From contig NZ_AWNH01000106.1 in NCBI RefSeq assembly GCF_000482245.1, positions 1-64,000 of the forward strand: 64,000 bases of DNA, written 5' to 3'. The notes under the pieces are model-generated. The model saw only the letters and a list, made by a program, of their open reading frames with translations. It did not search any database and was not told where the DNA came from. Positions 55,445 through 61,173 of this stretch are shown piece after piece (positions within the stretch are counted from its first letter, which is position 1; every line of letters starts with the position of its first letter). The translations under genes were made by a program, and so were the position numbers. This stretch comes from Leptolyngbya sp. Heron Island J (GTDB lineage: Bacteria; Cyanobacteriota; Cyanobacteriia; Phormidesmidales; Phormidesmidaceae).

Positions 55445-56209
55445 ATGTTAGATCAGTTACTCGAATGGTCGCCTAACCTTGGGCTCGACACATTGCTTTT
55501 ATTGCCAGTGCTGATTGCGCTGGAGGCAGTGCTGTCGGCGGATAATGCGATCGCACTTGCCGCCATTGCCCAGGGCCTCGAATCAGAAGAGCAACAACAG
55601 AAAGCCTTAAACCTGGGGCTGATTGTTGCCTTTGTGCTGAGGATGACCCTAATTTTGACGGCGAGTTGGGTACTAAAGTTCTGGCAGTTTGAAGTAGCCG
55701 GAGCGGTCTATTTGCTATGGCTAGTCTATCAGCACTTTAGCGGCAGCACAGACGAGGAACACCACCACGGCCCTAGGTTTGCATCCCTGTGGCAGGCGAT
55801 TCCCATCATTGCCTTTACGGATCTAGCCTTTTCCCTGGACAGTGTCACCACTGCCATTGCCCTGTCCGATGAAGTGGCGATTATTCTGTTAGGCGGCACC
55901 ATTGGAATTATTGCCCTGCGGTTTATGGCCGGGTTATTTATCCGCTGGCTAAGTGAGTATGTCTATCTAGAAGATGCAGGATTTGTGACCGTTGCCTTTG
56001 TCGGTCTGCGGTTGCTGGTACGGGTGATTAATGAAAGTTGGGTTCCACCCGATTGGGCGATGGTGGCACTGATTGCCGCTATCTTTACCTGGGGCTTTTC
56101 AAAACGGGTGGATGCCGAGGAGACCGACGCAATTGAATTAACGCTACCCGTGATTGCCACTTTGGAGACCGATGACGAGGAAGATAAGGTTTTAAGTGGC
56201 GGGGAATAA
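55445..56209 (+). CDS. TerC-family integral membrane protein
   Basis: A 254-residue protein with seven or more hydrophobic segments. The first helix has LPVLIALEAVLSADNAIALA and a later one AFTDLAFSLDSVTTAIAL. Both carry the conserved acidic residues of the TerC family, which moves or senses metal ions such as Mn2+ and has a thylakoid-biogenesis role in chloroplasts (family knowledge). The C-terminal tail is acidic. Length and layout fit. It may serve manganese supply to photosystem II, but the sequence does not show that. Confidence 0.9.
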   Translation: MLDQLLEWSPNLGLDTLLLLPVLIALEAVLSADNAIALAAIAQGLESEEQQQKALNLGLIVAFVLRMTLILTASWVLKFWQFEVAGAVYLLWLVYQHFSGSTDEEHHHGPRFASLWQAIPIIAFTDLAFSLDSVTTAIALSDEVAIILLGGTIGIIALRFMAGLFIRWLSEYVYLEDAGFVTVAFVGLRLLVRVINESWVPPDWAMVALIAAIFTWGFSKRVDAEETDAIELTLPVIATLETDDEEDKVLSGGE

Positions 56210-56216
56210 TCTCTGC

Positions 56217-56594
56217 TTAACCAAACCCATAAACAGGAATACAAGCCTGAGTCATATCTTGCACACTCCATGATGGCTGCTTCGGGTCTTCCGAACTGAG
56301 CAACAGGTCGAGCTGATTTTGAACAATGTACTCAATGCCCCAGTAGATATAGCTTTCCAGCTTTAGTTCTAAGTTGACAAGCTGCTTCAGATACTGAGGT
56401 AAACGCGCCCAGTTAGCCGCTTCATTGAGGCTAGGCATGGTTTCCTTGAGCTTGCATTCAATGTACTCAAGCAGTAACTGTTTTAATGCTCCATCACCCA
56501 AAACAGCTTGGTACGGATAGGCCGGATAAGCTGATAAAGCGATATCAACCTTGTCAGATAAAATCTGAGATACTGAGCTGTTCGTGCTTTGCAT
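56217..56594 (-). CDS. Helical protein of unknown function
   Basis: A 125-residue, mainly helical protein with no membrane segment, no catalytic motif and no family I recognise. Representative stretches are LLLEYIECKLKETMPSLNEA and LKQLVNLELKLESYIYWGIE. ATG 56594 is assumed; the frame extends to 56636, and neither start has a strong ribosome-binding site. It converges with the TerC gene, 7 bases apart. Confidence 0.5.
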   Translation of the reverse strand: MQSTNSSVSQILSDKVDIALSAYPAYPYQAVLGDGALKQLLLEYIECKLKETMPSLNEAANWARLPQYLKQLVNLELKLESYIYWGIEYIVQNQLDLLLSSEDPKQPSWSVQDMTQACIPVYGFG

Positions 56595-56664
56595 AATTAG
56601 TACACTCTCTAATCGTGGTGGTTGAGTTGTTGGCATGGGTCACGATGATGTTTGACTAGAACCT

Positions 56665-56851: not shown

Positions 56852-57019
56852 ATGAGGTATTGCCTCTGTTGCAATCATTCGCTGCTGCGTCATATCCGGC
56901 AGAATAGTCTGTACTGGTATTGCCCCAGCTGTCGTCAGGCGATGCCAGAAGCTAACGTTGGTGTACAGCTCAGCGGCTATCCCTTCACAGAACCCGCCAG
57001 CAGCCCACGCACAAAGTAA
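56852..57019 (+). CDS. Small zinc-ribbon protein
   Basis: A 55-residue frame with Cys pairs C4/C7 (CLCC) and C24/C27 (YCPSC), reading MRYCLCCNHSLLRHIRQNSL, then YWYCPSCRQAMPEANV. Cyanobacteria have short zinc-ribbon proteins of this shape, with a CxxC pair, LLRHIR and YW(F/Y)CxxC (recollection). GGAG lies about 10 bases upstream. The last 14 codons overlap, on the opposite strand, the displaced ggtD 3' end, so the C-terminus may be artificial. It may be real with a shortened or altered tail. Confidence 0.55.
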   Translation: MRYCLCCNHSLLRHIRQNSLYWYCPSCRQAMPEANVGVQLSGYPFTEPASSPRTK

Positions 57020-57030
57020 GGCTGTAGGGC
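56977..57030 (-). pseudogene. Displaced 3' end of a ggtD-type permease gene
   Basis: Read on the minus strand, 57027 to 56977 encodes ALQPYFVRGLLAGSVKG and a stop. The intact permease at 60304 ends ALQRYFVRGLLAGSVKG and stop: 16 of 17 residues are identical. By eye, 42 of 53 bases agree (56978-57030 against 60305-60357), and most differences are silent. Homology stops sharply at 57030. The frame upstream of the match is not ggtD. This is either an original gene end displaced by an integrated element or a remnant of a lost second permease. Confidence 0.8.
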
Positions 57031-57344
57031 ATACGACCAGCACAATGAACATATATCCTGCCTTGGCTCTCACTTTTATTGCTGCCAAGGCAGATTTGTA
57101 TGAACTGAACACTTCATTATTAAGCAGTGCTGGTAGCTATGCCACGCATTGGCAAACCAAGCTGCCTTTGAGTATCTCCGTCATGGAATAGTTCGTTCAT
57201 ATTGTCTGCTCAATAAATCGTCATCAAATGTAGACAATTACTTGATGGCTTTCTCACAGTCTAGAAACCATTGCAGGCAAACACCCAATACAGATCACTA
57301 TCCTTTGGGTGCTCGCCTACTGAAATTAAATTTAGACTTTTCTT

Positions 57345-57401
57345 GAACTTAATTGGTTCATTTGTACTGCTGTTTGATATAGTACAAATGAACTTAATTG
57401 G
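57345..57401. promoter_or_regulatory. Inverted and direct repeats upstream of the island plus-strand gene
   Basis: GTTCATTTGTACT (57356-57368) and AGTACAAATGAAC (57381-57393) are perfect 13-bp complements 12 bases apart. GAACTTAATTGG is repeated directly at 57345-57356 and 57390-57401. A third TTTGTACT lies near 57406. The cluster is 100-150 bases before the likely start of the 238-residue protein and could be an operator array. Confidence 0.5.
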
Positions 57402-57504
57402 ATTGTTTGTACTAATACTGGTTGAGGGAAAGATTCTCTCTCTCAACTCGCTCCGCGTCACAGATTTTGCACAACAAGTTTTGTCCTATTTTAAGGTAGT
57501 TCTC

Positions 57505-58221
57505 ATGTTTGGTCAGTCTGTAAACTTGCCTAGGAATAGCTCAGAGATGGGCTTTGGTGATAATTTTTTATCTTCGCTGATTGATCTAATTATGAATAAC
57601 TTGGCAACTACGGTTCAGGACTGCTCCCTGAGAGAAAAACTGAATGAAATTAGAAAAAGCTGTGATATTCAATCACCTTTAGATGATTTTATTGAGGAGA
57701 ATTCTAAGCTTGACAAAAGGGATATTCCTGACAATATATTCGAGTTTTTAGGGAAAAGCATTAAAGAACTTAAGGAAGGCGAAGAAAATTCTAGAAGTAT
57801 CATTTTAGATATTCTTAAAGGAAATGATAGTAGACATAGAAAAGTTTTTTCAAATCAAAAACCTTCAAGTGATATAAATCAGCGTCGTCAAGAAAATATT
57901 TATGACTACTGGAAATTGATAGAGTACTCCGCCATTATGCATAGCACCGCGTTGATAGATAGCTTAGGTATTTATGGCGTATTAGAAAATGGTTGTAAAC
58001 CCAATAGCAAAGTTCTCGCAGATCCTAGCCTTGGAACATATATCAAGTTCTTTAAAGAACGATATGCAAAAGTTGAGCAATATGAGAACCAGCCAGAGAA
58101 TTCTTCAGAGGAAGCAAGAGCGCAGCAGGATAATAAAAGTAGAATGCTAAAAAGCGAAAGTCTCTACAAGCCTTATTATAAGTATTTATTTAGCGCTCTG
58201 GAGTATATTGCTAGTTTATAG
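57505..58221 (+). CDS. Island protein of unknown function
   Basis: A 238-residue, charged, mainly helical protein without membrane segments or recognised catalytic motif. It begins MFGQSVNLPRNSSEMGFGDN and has Lys/Glu-rich helices (LREKLNEIRKSCDIQSPLDD, KSIKELKEGEENSRSIILDI), an IYDYWKLIEYSAIMHSTALI block, and a C-terminal YKPYYKYLFSALEYIASL. ATG 57505 is preferred because AAGG lies about 10 bases before it. The frame extends to 57271, through the inverted repeat, and that part is probably not coding. Codon use is AT-rich, unlike flanking genes. I do not recognise a family. Confidence 0.6.
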   Translation: MFGQSVNLPRNSSEMGFGDNFLSSLIDLIMNNLATTVQDCSLREKLNEIRKSCDIQSPLDDFIEENSKLDKRDIPDNIFEFLGKSIKELKEGEENSRSIILDILKGNDSRHRKVFSNQKPSSDINQRRQENIYDYWKLIEYSAIMHSTALIDSLGIYGVLENGCKPNSKVLADPSLGTYIKFFKERYAKVEQYENQPENSSEEARAQQDNKSRMLKSESLYKPYYKYLFSALEYIASL

Positions 58222-58304
58222 CCGTATTATTGGGTTTGTGTAACTATCCTAATCGATTATAAAGGGCCTGTAAAATTGCGACGAGCGTTCAGCTGAAATG
58301 ATTT

Positions 58305-58736
58305 CTATATTTCAGGATTCTTCGCTAAGAAGTCCCGTATGATTTCATTTTTTGCATCGTCATCCAAATTCTCACGAGCCTCTGCCCAGGATTCTCGCTC
58401 TGATTGAAGCTTACGTAGCAGCTTCTCATACGGCTCCAGATAGCTGTGAAACTCTTTTGGCAAGTCTTTTTTGAAGCGCTGATATCTTATTTCCGTTCTA
58501 TCGATATCAGCCTTCAACTCTATCTCAAATCTATGAAAAGAGCTTTCTTTTTCTTCTTCTATTTTTATATTTAAGTCATCAATATTTTGCATATTGTCTC
58601 GTCCAGTGAGGGAATTATCCGAACGAGTCTTATTAATCGGCGAAAATTTCCCTCTTGAAATCAATACAGTAATTAGTGCGCTTACCGATGCTGATACTAC
58701 TACTAATGGTAGTAAAAAAACTAAGGATAAAGACAT
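58305..58736 (-). CDS. Island membrane-anchored coiled-coil protein (143 residues)
   Basis: One N-terminal transmembrane helix (about 3-26, LSLVFLLPLVVVSASVSALI), a Ser/Asn linker, and then a charged helix of about 85 residues rich in Glu and Lys (KIEEEKESSFHRFEIELKAD, LEPYEKLLRKLQSERESWAE) that should form a coiled coil. No enzymatic motif. It is the last gene of the minus-strand island group, about 190 bases after the 279-residue protein. A small out-of-frame ORF in the gap (58777-59025) overlaps that gene and is doubtful. Family not recognised. Confidence 0.55.
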   Translation of the reverse strand: MSLSLVFLLPLVVVSASVSALITVLISRGKFSPINKTRSDNSLTGRDNMQNIDDLNIKIEEEKESSFHRFEIELKADIDRTEIRYQRFKKDLPKEFHSYLEPYEKLLRKLQSERESWAEARENLDDDAKNEIIRDFLAKNPEI

Positions 58737-58924
58737 ATTTTATTCTTGTTGGTAGATGGAGGTAGACCTAAATGATTTATGCAATATAGCGATTCCTACT
58801 CGAATGAGGTGCACCAAAATCACTAACTGAAAGCTTTTTAGCTCCAAGTATGTACCTCACCAGATAGAGAACCGCTATAGCTTGTCTGAAAAGCTGAAGA
58901 TCAAGTCTTAATTGCTCTATGCTT

Positions 58925-59764
58925 CTATATCCCTCTAATTGTTTGTTGTAAATCTCGTAATTTCTCTTTATATGCAGGAGCTCCTTTAATTGAAGCAATA
59001 TCATTTTTGAACTCCTTAAAATCATGAAAATCCTTAAATGGTACTTGATTTTTATATTGTTCCATTTCTGCCACTAGGGCTCTGGTACTCTTCAAGCTAG
59101 AGGTGATTCTCTCTCCAATCGTATCGCAGATTTGATCAGCATTTGGCGGCCTCATCTGTTTGGTGTAGTGTTGAATCCTCTCTAAAGTTTGAATGGCTCT
59201 AGCATTATACCTAGCTTGTTTAAGGCTTCTTTTGACAAGAGCATCTGAATTATATCCCTGGCCTAAATACCTCAAGTAAAATTCCCTTTCGAACTCGAAT
59301 TGAGAGATAGATAGATCTGCTAGCTCGTACTGCATAAATAATATTTCCTGTTCAATTAATTCATTTTTCTGTGTAGCCTCATCTATTCTGGAATTGACAG
59401 CTTGATTAACCAAAGCAGGCAGTTGTTTCTCGACATTTTGTTGTATTTCGTTAAGTGTTTCTCCTTGACTGAATCTTGAAACAACATAATCCGCAACCCT
59501 CGAAACAATTGCTGCACCAAAGAGCACCCCAATAAATAGTTGAAGCTGGCTGTCATTTTTTGTTGTAATGTCATTAATTGCAGCACTGTTTTCGTTTATA
59601 TTGCGGAAATTAGTCTCTATTTTAGCTTCATTAACGTCTGGCTTGGAGGAGGGAGGATCATCCGCTGCAGCTGGGCTAATCAATACACAAAAAACTCCGA
59701 GTATCGCTATTAATATTGGGGACAAATATTGTTTCTTATTCTTCAGGCTGATTGTTCTCATCAT
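58925..59764 (-). CDS. Island membrane protein with coiled coil (279 residues)
   Basis: The N-terminus looks like a signal peptide (YLSPILIAILGVFCVLISPA, then AADDPP). A second hydrophobic helix lies at about 75-95 (LQLFIGVLFGAAIVSRVADY), and a long polar helical part follows, including FSQGETLNEIQQNVEKQLPA and LVKRSLKQARYNARAIQTLE. No catalytic motif. Its first 29 bases overlap the end of the zinc-ribbon/HTH gene, which indicates coupled translation. Topology suggests an envelope protein with a large cytoplasmic or periplasmic coil. Family not recognised. Confidence 0.6.
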   Translation of the reverse strand: MMRTISLKNKKQYLSPILIAILGVFCVLISPAAADDPPSSKPDVNEAKIETNFRNINENSAAINDITTKNDSQLQLFIGVLFGAAIVSRVADYVVSRFSQGETLNEIQQNVEKQLPALVNQAVNSRIDEATQKNELIEQEILFMQYELADLSISQFEFEREFYLRYLGQGYNSDALVKRSLKQARYNARAIQTLERIQHYTKQMRPPNADQICDTIGERITSSLKSTRALVAEMEQYKNQVPFKDFHDFKEFKNDIASIKGAPAYKEKLRDLQQTIRGI

Positions 59765-60176
59765 CTTCAGGGGTGAGACTTTCCTCTGGCGATTCTACCC
59801 AAAACGTATTTTTATCTCTAATAATCTGCGTTAGCAGCTCAGATGTGTCGTTTTGGGCATCTCGTATACGAGATATCATGGTTGCGGCCGTATTTTTATT
59901 AACTTCTATTAATTTTGCAAGACCACGTACGGTTGCTCTATTTTTTTGGTCAGTAACAAAAAAGATAGCTGTAAACCACTTGTTTAGTTTTACACGTGAA
60001 TTATGAAATAGAGTATCAACTGTAACACTGTATGACGTGAAGCAATGGTTACAGTGATATCTATTTTCTTTTTTTAGCTTAGTAGTACGAAACGATTTGC
60101 AATAAGGACATTTTGGCTTTCCTTGCCAGCGGATTTTTTCCAGGTATTTTAGACAGTCCTCATGGGAGCGAGCCAT
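59736..60176 (-). CDS. IS1595-type zinc-ribbon/HTH protein lacking the DDE domain
   Basis: A 146-residue protein. The zinc ribbon has CPYCKSFRTTKLKKENRYHC followed by NHC (Cys 23/26 and 42/45). It is followed by FTSYSVTVDTLFHNSRVKLN and a helix-turn-helix region (TVRGLAKLIEVNKNTAATMI). This is the N-terminal module of IS1595-family transposases (Zn_Tnp_IS1595). In transposases a DDE catalytic domain follows, but here the protein ends in an acidic tail (ESPEESLTPEDDENNQPEE). It probably binds DNA as a regulator of the island genes rather than moving DNA. It heads the minus-strand group and overlaps the next gene by 29 bases. Confidence 0.75.
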   Translation of the reverse strand: MARSHEDCLKYLEKIRWQGKPKCPYCKSFRTTKLKKENRYHCNHCFTSYSVTVDTLFHNSRVKLNKWFTAIFFVTDQKNRATVRGLAKLIEVNKNTAATMISRIRDAQNDTSELLTQIIRDKNTFWVESPEESLTPEDDENNQPEE

Positions 60177-60303
60177 CTAGCTCTGGGGTTGACATCGGTA
60201 TTCCGCAAATAACTTTGGCACGAATGCAACATATCATCGCTAGTCTCTACCCGCGATGAGTTCCCGATGTTTTGTGTGAAGGCTTACTTGTTACCTTCTA
60301 CTC

Positions 60304-61173
60304 TTATCCTTTAACCGATCCGGCCAATAGCCCACGGACAAAATATCGCTGTAGGGCAAAAAATACACCTAGGGGTACGACCATGGAAACAAACGCTCCA
60401 GCGGTAAGTAAATGCCAATCCTGTCCTCGATCGCCTACCAGATTGCGTAGTACCAGGGTGACCGGAGCCACGTCTTGATTGCCGCCCAGATATACCAGCG
60501 CTACTAACAGGTCGTTCCAAACCCAAAGGAATTGAAAGACGGCAAAAGAGGCGATCGCAGGCATCGACAGCGGCACAATCAACCGCATAAAAATCTTCAA
60601 ATGAGACGCTCCATCCACAGCGGCGGCCTCGATTAAGTCCCGTGGTAGTGAGCCAATATAATTGCGCAACAGATAAATTCCCAGGGGTAATCCATAGCCC
60701 GTATGGGCCAACCACACCGCCAGAAAACTGCCTGCTAACCCCAGGTCGTTATAGGCTCGCAGCACTGGAATCAGCGTCATCTGTAGCGGCACCACCAGCA
60801 GCCCAACAATGGCCACAAACAGCACCTGCCGTCCCGGAAACTGCATCCAGGCCAGGGCATAGGCGGCAAAGGTGGCAATGGAAATGGGAATTACTGTAGC
60901 CGGGATCGAGATTACCAGGCTGTTGAGAAATGCCTGGCCCATGCCCTGACTGGCCAGTACGTCGATGTAGTTACCAATGTGAAATTGGGCCAGGTCAAAC
61001 GGATGTTGGAAAACAGTCCACCAGCCGTTTTGGAGGAGGTCATCGCGACGACGAAAGGAGCTGATCAGTAAGCCAGCGGTGGGTAGGGTCCAGATAAGTG
61101 AGATCGCAACCACCGCTGTATGTAACGGCAGCCGTTCAAACCAGATCGGAACTGAAGCGCGAGCAATTTTCAT
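60304..61173 (-). CDS. ggtD: Sugar/compatible-solute ABC permease, MalG/AglG type
   Basis: A 289-residue inner-membrane permease with six predicted helices and the MalG-type EAA loop EAAAVDGASHLKIFMRLIVP. The gene overlaps the upstream permease gene by four bases (ATGA). The GgtC/GgtD pair with GgtB resembles the cyanobacterial glucosylglycerol/sucrose/trehalose transporter (AglF/AglG family). The 3' end (ALQRYFVRGLLAGSVKG) borders the AT-rich island and may have been supplied by it. Confidence 0.85.
   Translation of the reverse strand: MKIARASVPIWFERLPLHTAVVAISLIWTLPTAGLLISSFRRRDDLLQNGWWTVFQHPFDLAQFHIGNYIDVLASQGMGQAFLNSLVISIPATVIPISIATFAAYALAWMQFPGRQVLFVAIVGLLVVPLQMTLIPVLRAYNDLGLAGSFLAVWLAHTGYGLPLGIYLLRNYIGSLPRDLIEAAAVDGASHLKIFMRLIVPLSMPAIASFAVFQFLWVWNDLLVALVYLGGNQDVAPVTLVLRNLVGDRGQDWHLLTAGAFVSMVVPLGVFFALQRYFVRGLLAGSVKG
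60305..60357. repeat. Right copy of the island-flanking repeat (ggtD 3' end)
   Basis: This copy lies within the intact ggtD coding end. It matches 56978-57030 at 42 of 53 positions by eye. Identical blocks include GCTGTAGGGC (60348-60357; 57021-57030) and AGCCCACG. As a direct repeat 3.3 kb apart, it is a candidate attachment-site pair. Confidence 0.6.

Follow-up and report, generated by a model that had tools for sequence, protein, structure and literature searches.

The window, a 64,000-nucleotide stretch of a contig from the 8.06 Mb genome of Leptolyngbya sp. Heron Island J, carries a horizontally acquired, AT-rich insertion of 3.3 kb in the 3′ end of an ABC-permease gene. The first gene of the acquired module, ORF1, is a member of a family of stand-alone zinc-ribbon/HTH genes that lack the DDE domain and are under purifying selection. 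Behind such genes a membrane protein is encoded far more commonly than chance would allow. These membrane partners fall into two families, type I and type II, and at one syntenic site in Nostoc partners of both types have been swapped behind a constant ORF1. The features of the module and its surroundings are as follows.

55445–56636, native left flank: a TerC-like membrane protein gene (plus strand) and a gene for a 139-residue protein (minus strand), with orthologues in congeners.
56978–57031, left copy of a 54-bp direct repeat: the 3′ end of the ABC permease gene in displaced form, running on into the native flank.
57032–60304, extent of the acquired module: absent in congeners G002, G004, and G005; low GC.
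57547–58221, plus strand, convergent gene: 224 residues from the likely start, the ATG at 57547; the open frame begins at 57271; a divergent phycobilisome-like domain is possible.
58305–58736, minus strand, ORF3: a 143-residue coiled-coil protein with one predicted TM segment.
58777–59025, an open frame of 82 residues, overlapping ORF2 and without a match to any family; it is not taken as a gene.
58925–59764, minus strand, ORF2: 279 residues, a type II membrane partner, overlapping ORF1 by 29 bp.
59736–60176, minus strand, ORF1: 146 residues, an IS1595-type zinc ribbon plus HTH without the DDE domain; a proposed autoregulator.
60304–61173, minus strand, native ABC sugar permease gene: the insertion site is at its 3′ end; orthologues in seven congeners are 92–97% identical.
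60305–60358, right copy of the direct repeat: 80% identical to the left copy; it now forms the 3′ end of the ABC permease gene.

The three minus-strand ORFs, their coordinates, and their 29-base overlap are all present as described in the first-pass annotation, which also suspected an integrated island here. Comparison with congeners confirms the island. The GC content of the module is 37.5% versus 50–51% in the flanks, and in G002, G004, and G005 the flanking genes adjoin one another without it. When the window is compared with G004 and G005, the last 54 bp of the permease gene are seen to be present twice, 3327 bp apart, and this direct repeat brackets the module. The convergent plus-strand ORF (57271–58221) falls within the same insertion as ORF1 to ORF3. 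No integrase gene was found inside the module, and no inverted-repeat pair brackets it. A second case is provided by locus L083 of Leptothoe, in which an intact upstream gene lies on one side of the module and a frameshifted copy of that gene’s 3′ end, about 212 bp at 85%, lies beyond it. The repeat geometry at both loci would be the expected trace of an integrated circle carrying the 3′ end of a gene. A single attachment site for the module is ruled out, as the insertion neighbours differ, being the ABC permease gene in the window and another gene in L083. In congeners G003, G006, and G007 (L249–L251), the interval between the TerC-like gene and the ABC permease gene holds other genes, namely response regulators, a large sensor-kinase-like protein, and small genes.

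ORF1 matches the Pfam family PF12760 (Zn_ribbon_IS1595) at 3.2e-10, over the cut-off. In the NCBIfam IS1595 transposase model, NF033547, it covers only positions 1–72 of 215, and the DDE part is thus missing; the match to the NCBIfam model for IS1 is weak (0.002). The acidic tail noted at first reading is also there, since the C-terminal 36 residues include 11 D/E and 2 K/R. TM segments, here and in the relatives, were called from hydropathy only. By this measure, ORF2 has hydrophobic segments at residues 16–34 (N-terminal; KD 2.42) and 77–95 (KD 1.78), and ORF3 has one, at residues 8–26 (KD 2.52). ORF2 is predicted to consist of an N-terminal hydrophobic segment or signal anchor, a second TM segment, and a cytosolic coiled coil with an LEYQ-like motif. 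The first-pass annotation recognised neither membrane protein, and ORF2 and ORF3 likewise have no family match in Pfam, NCBIfam, or PADLOC. None of the module proteins matches a toxin family in these three collections or is recognised by a PADLOC model (best E-value 0.035), and the window’s module contains neither a core NTPase nor a caspase-type effector. Between ORF2 and ORF3, a stretch of about 97 bp (58784–58879) is repeated at G000:C24:62837-62933 with 78% identity. It is possibly a small interspersed repeat, of which just two copies were found in the genome.

The ten stand-alone homologues of ORF1 that were found first are 120–150 residues long and 43–52% identical to it, with the four zinc-ligand cysteines invariant. 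Sampling of 390 cyanobacterial genomes found stand-alone members of the family in 25 of them; five further matches are transposase-length frames. When 84,980 species genomes were scanned, 49 stand-alone loci were recovered from cyanobacteria; the non-cyanobacterial matches of the same scan are mostly 285–337 residues, that is, of transposase length. The 51 family sequences form 23 clusters at 70% identity, one of which holds 14, and the 49 loci are thus not independent. Pairwise dN/dS between family members is 0.12–0.31. Homologues with an intact DDE domain, which would have marked ORF1 as a truncated transposase, did not turn up in its position; the homologues there are also DDE-less and equally short. 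A truncated transposase is ruled out by the conserved length of the family, by dN/dS, and by the association with a partner. Plasmid relatives of ORF1 carry the annotation ‘transposase’. One of these, on plasmid pCAL6303.02 of Calothrix sp. PCC 6303 (L254), is not followed by a partner ORF; a recombinase gene lies about 1 kb downstream. Outside cyanobacteria, IS1595-type transposases of DDE length (L061, L070, L101, L117, and others) have an ORF of about 300 residues directly behind them, which in the four tested encodes a P63C domain (PF10546). Some relatives shorter than these, of 131–190 residues, also exist, in viral contigs among other places.

At 35 of the 49 stand-alone loci, spread over many genera, the gene behind ORF1 encodes a protein of 180–430 residues whose N-terminal region contains one or two TM segments. 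The same class of protein was found for 4 of 186 control genes from random regions of related genomes (Fisher 6e-26, a figure that overstates independence given the 23 clusters, most of which still show the pattern) and behind none of 23 DDE-length relatives. Thus, the association of a DDE-less IS1595-type protein with membrane proteins that was pointed out in the window recurs well beyond it. When partners are assigned by family and position, through a manual reading of search outputs, 40 of the 47 readable loci have one: 32 are type I, 6 are type II, 1 is a CHAT fusion, and 1 is another two-TM protein. The remaining seven loci have the ORF1-family gene without any partner. Loci at which the regulator stands alone include L040, L042, L060, L071, L085, and the plasmid locus L254. 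Searches made from the partner’s side gave the same picture. All 14 strong matches to the type I profile in whole genomes directly adjoin an ORF1-family gene, and all five type II matches in the 390 genomes sit directly behind one.

The exchange of partners is clearest at the syntenic site in Nostoc. There, the flanks and most of ORF1 are 75–96% identical, and all sequence differs from inside the 3′ end of ORF1 to a fixed right junction (L040:6708). The alleles include no partner (L040 and L099), a type II protein (L053), and different type I proteins (L041, L043, L045, L046, L050, and L102). In pairs of loci whose ORF1 products are 84–91% identical, the partners mostly share 17–32% identity, close to the mean of 20.6% for shuffled sequences. 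Because the boundary of the swap falls within the 3′ end of the ORF1 gene, the variable C-terminal tail of its product is exchanged together with the partner. With this allelic series, in which empty, type I, and type II alleles share one regulator, the role of each part can be tested directly.

Type I proteins are built of an N-terminal part, with two predicted TM segments and a coiled coil, and a C-terminal phycobilin-like domain. Among 29 type I proteins, five match PF00502, the best at 7.2e-8, and L064 is over the curated cut-off. Aligned with hhalign to the genome’s own phycobiliproteins, type I gives a probability of 91.9% and an E-value of 7e-7 over 128 columns. In that alignment the position of the bilin-attaching cysteine (C-x-R-D motif) is taken by the phenylalanine of the type I consensus FxxDIY. 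The C-terminal positions of the type I profile also retrieve frames of phycobiliprotein length, about 167 residues, in small picocyanobacterial genomes. An AlphaFold model of the type I protein of L054 (pLDDT 87.5) was compared by Foldseek and VIA-align, and the resulting lists are dominated by phycobiliproteins, with the globin domain of DosC also among the matches; Z reaches 11.4 over 138 residues, a value that is not decisive by itself in helical proteins. Because the sequence and fold evidence agree, we accept that type I partners end in a domain of the phycobiliprotein/globin fold. The phycobilin-like domain is also fused to a CHAT protease in L055 and to AAA_35-like ATPases in L194 and L197, the AAA_35 label resting on resemblance to typed neighbours. 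Other proteins of the Heron Island J genome touch on this domain. On contig C108 (L163 355–2844), a 256-residue two-TM protein is convergent to tandem genes for 219 and 180 residues, the first of which matches PF00502 at 5e-10, a pairing of two-TM and phycobilin-like proteins without the regulator. Contigs C33, C71, C76, C80, and C115 (L165–L168 and L170) encode five proteins of about 330–380 residues with PF00502 matches, which are not of antenna-subunit length.

ORF2 of the window is a type II protein. It groups with the partners of L030 (contig C81 of its own genome), L053, L057, L066, L074, L078, and L086 and of plasmid p057_H of Nostoc sp. C057. Single-sequence searches found no ORF2 homologue in 97 relatives, and homologues surfaced only with the type II profile. 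Several type II loci repeat the layout of the window, that is, regulator, type II protein, small third gene, and convergent gene. The positional counterpart of ORF3 encodes 196 residues in L030, 160 in L053, 136 in L057, and 132 in L255. The three-gene set proposed in the first-pass annotation is only partly borne out, since it does not hold everywhere. Third genes resembling ORF3 are confined to some of the type II loci (contig C81 of the same genome, LEGE 12452, the Nostoc C057 plasmid, and Calothrix MO_167.B12), and most loci consist of a regulator and one membrane protein. The idea that ORF2 itself carries a phycobilin-like domain is unsupported, the type II profile giving a probability of 0.1 against phycobiliproteins in hhalign.

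The position of the convergent gene is conserved at type II loci. A profile of the convergent genes of L030, L053, and C057 scores 32.9 against the type I domain, with column shuffles reaching at most 16.6, and 29.6 versus 20.8 against phycobiliproteins. These scores weakly suggest that convergent genes at type II loci may carry the phycobilin-like domain separately, and on the strength of the match to the type I domain, type II is maybe a split version of type I. The window’s own convergent gene has no homologue in 291 genomes. Taken alone, it compares with the phycobilin-like domain in hhalign barely differently from shuffles, and its AlphaFold model has a pLDDT of 41.

At about 20 loci, most of them in Nostocales, the start of the ORF1 gene lies within an almost perfect inverted repeat that reaches 38–45 bp. 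Among 17 such sequences, 88.9% of cells are paired versus 79.2% in shuffles, and there are 25 double changes versus 8.8 expected (0 of 500 shuffles). In L044 a perfect 20-bp stem of unrelated sequence occupies the same place. The palindrome might serve as an operator, or it might form an RNA hairpin that hides the start codon. A search for an operator palindrome at the start of ORF1 in the window found none.

A stress-response or defence layout had also been suggested for the window, and the surroundings of the modules do not establish it. PADLOC models for DUF499, DUF1156 methylase, HEC-01A, AbiU, HmaC, and Cas12f were matched among 150 neighbour proteins; many matches were likewise found among 134 control proteins, the excess over this random control is not clear, and the notion of defence-island enrichment around the modules was dropped. 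The neighbouring genes are mostly ordinary. In four loci of Leptothoe and Nodosilinea (L083, L095, L096, and L097), a candidate defence locus with DUF1156-methylase and DUF499-type genes is found close to the module.

We suggest, by analogy and with somewhat less than even confidence, that the module is an acquired cassette in which an InsA-like autoregulator is combined with an exchangeable membrane sensor or effector that serves in a conflict or damage response. ORF1 would be the domesticated DNA-binding half of an IS1595-type transposase. Acting as InsA does, it would be an autorepressor and would keep the operon that encodes it silent; in the roughly 20 relatives its target could be the palindrome or hairpin over its own start codon, which the window does not have. 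The second role would be filled by the exchangeable membrane-anchored coiled-coil protein, here ORF2 together with ORF3 and the convergent gene. The membrane protein would be the sensing or acting part, such that a cue reaches the phycobilin-like domain or the cytosolic coiled coil and is passed to the TM hairpin. A response to biological conflict or cell damage seems the likeliest role because of the rapid diversification of the partners, the mobility of the cassette, and the fusions of the phycobilin-like domain to a CHAT protease and AAA_35-like ATPases. Against this model, ORF2 of the window has no detectable phycobilin-like domain, the window’s convergent gene taken alone gives no convincing match, the partnerless loci show that the regulator can do without a membrane protein, and the modules’ neighbours are mostly ordinary genes. 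A more specific proposal, which we offer quite tentatively, is that these loci are mobile conflict cassettes in which a constant IS1595-derived regulator is paired with a hypervariable membrane sensor-effector built on an unpigmented domain of the phycobiliprotein fold. If so, a light-harvesting fold would have been recruited as a signalling or adaptor domain, in CHAT proteases and AAA_35-like ATPases as well.

Other explanations deserve consideration. The globin/phycobilin fold serves in sensors, and the C-terminal tail of ORF1 swaps along with the partner, which suggests that the two are physically coupled. Both points would fit a one-operon sensor of envelope, light, or redox stress, in which the membrane protein sequesters or releases ORF1 and host genes are regulated, with no conflict system involved. 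Partner divergence at the level of chance and sporadic presence, in about 6% of genomes, would be unusual for a core sensor. We regard the sensor as doubtful in itself, and as nearly as likely as the conflict or damage reading.

It is improbable that the module is a selfish, addiction-like cassette of the toxin–antitoxin type, with a harmful membrane protein antagonised by ORF1 or by the convergent gene. The module is indeed small, mobile, and AT-rich, relatives occur on plasmids too (p057_H of Nostoc C057), a convergent gene is present at type II loci, and the membrane gene either overlaps the regulator gene or comes immediately after it. However, the regulator persists alone at the partnerless loci listed above, and the lack of any toxin family match also speaks against this view. 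Less probable again is a passenger-gene relic, in which a transposase that travelled with a passenger ORF would have lost its catalytic domain and left the passenger as cargo. Full-length DDE relatives outside cyanobacteria do carry a second ORF downstream, but the membrane partners show no relationship to the P63C ORFs, and such a history would account for the origin of the module and not for its present function. Least likely is a mere remnant of a truncated IS1595 transposase with unrelated ORFs downstream by chance: the zinc ribbon and HTH are clearly of IS1595 origin and the plasmid relatives bear the transposase label, but the same DDE-less length is kept in the 25 of 390 genomes and in over 20 sequence clusters, the low dN/dS, invariant zinc ligands, and strong partner association point the other way, and a direct repeat rather than an inverted-repeat pair brackets the module.

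Our preferred reading, the acquired cassette of an autoregulator and an exchangeable membrane protein, has several points of comparison with known systems. In the open-access papers searched, we found no description of the ORF1 family or of IS1595-derived regulators, and no mention of a phycobilin or globin adaptor in conflict systems, including in Kaur et al. 2020 (PMC7159879). As databases label the regulator ‘transposase’, a conserved regulatory family with swappable membrane partners has been passed over.

The zinc-finger/HTH product InsA of IS1 autorepresses the IS1 promoter (PMC12428005). Like ORF1, InsA is a zinc-ribbon/HTH protein that lacks DDE, derives from the N-terminal part of a transposase, and is the product of the first gene in its operon. 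Unlike InsA, ORF1 derives from another IS family, has no transposase frame, and sits over membrane-protein genes; in its family, the covarying palindrome on the start codon in Nostocales stands in place of IS terminal repeats. IS1595-family transposases (PF12760 plus DDE, with a P63C companion) have the same zinc ribbon and HTH as ORF1, whereas the window’s module lacks DDE and bracketing inverted repeats and has a membrane partner in place of the P63C ORF. The cyanobacterial CHAT/STAND/EAD conflict systems of Kaur et al. 2020 (PMC7159879) resemble the relatives of type I in that the domain is fused to CHAT and AAA_35-like proteins and in being multi-domain, sporadic, and mobile; the window’s module differs from them in having no NTPase or caspase. 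The C-terminal domain of type I is homologous to phycobiliproteins (PF00502) and has the same fold, but type I proteins are predicted to be membrane-anchored, have phenylalanine for the chromophore cysteine, and are not part of the antenna. The phycobiliprotein fold is here seen in a setting other than light harvesting, combined with membrane anchors, CHAT proteases, and ATPases, and these partners offer a testable entry to conflict or stress signalling in cyanobacteria. The parts are of known kinds; their combination is new.
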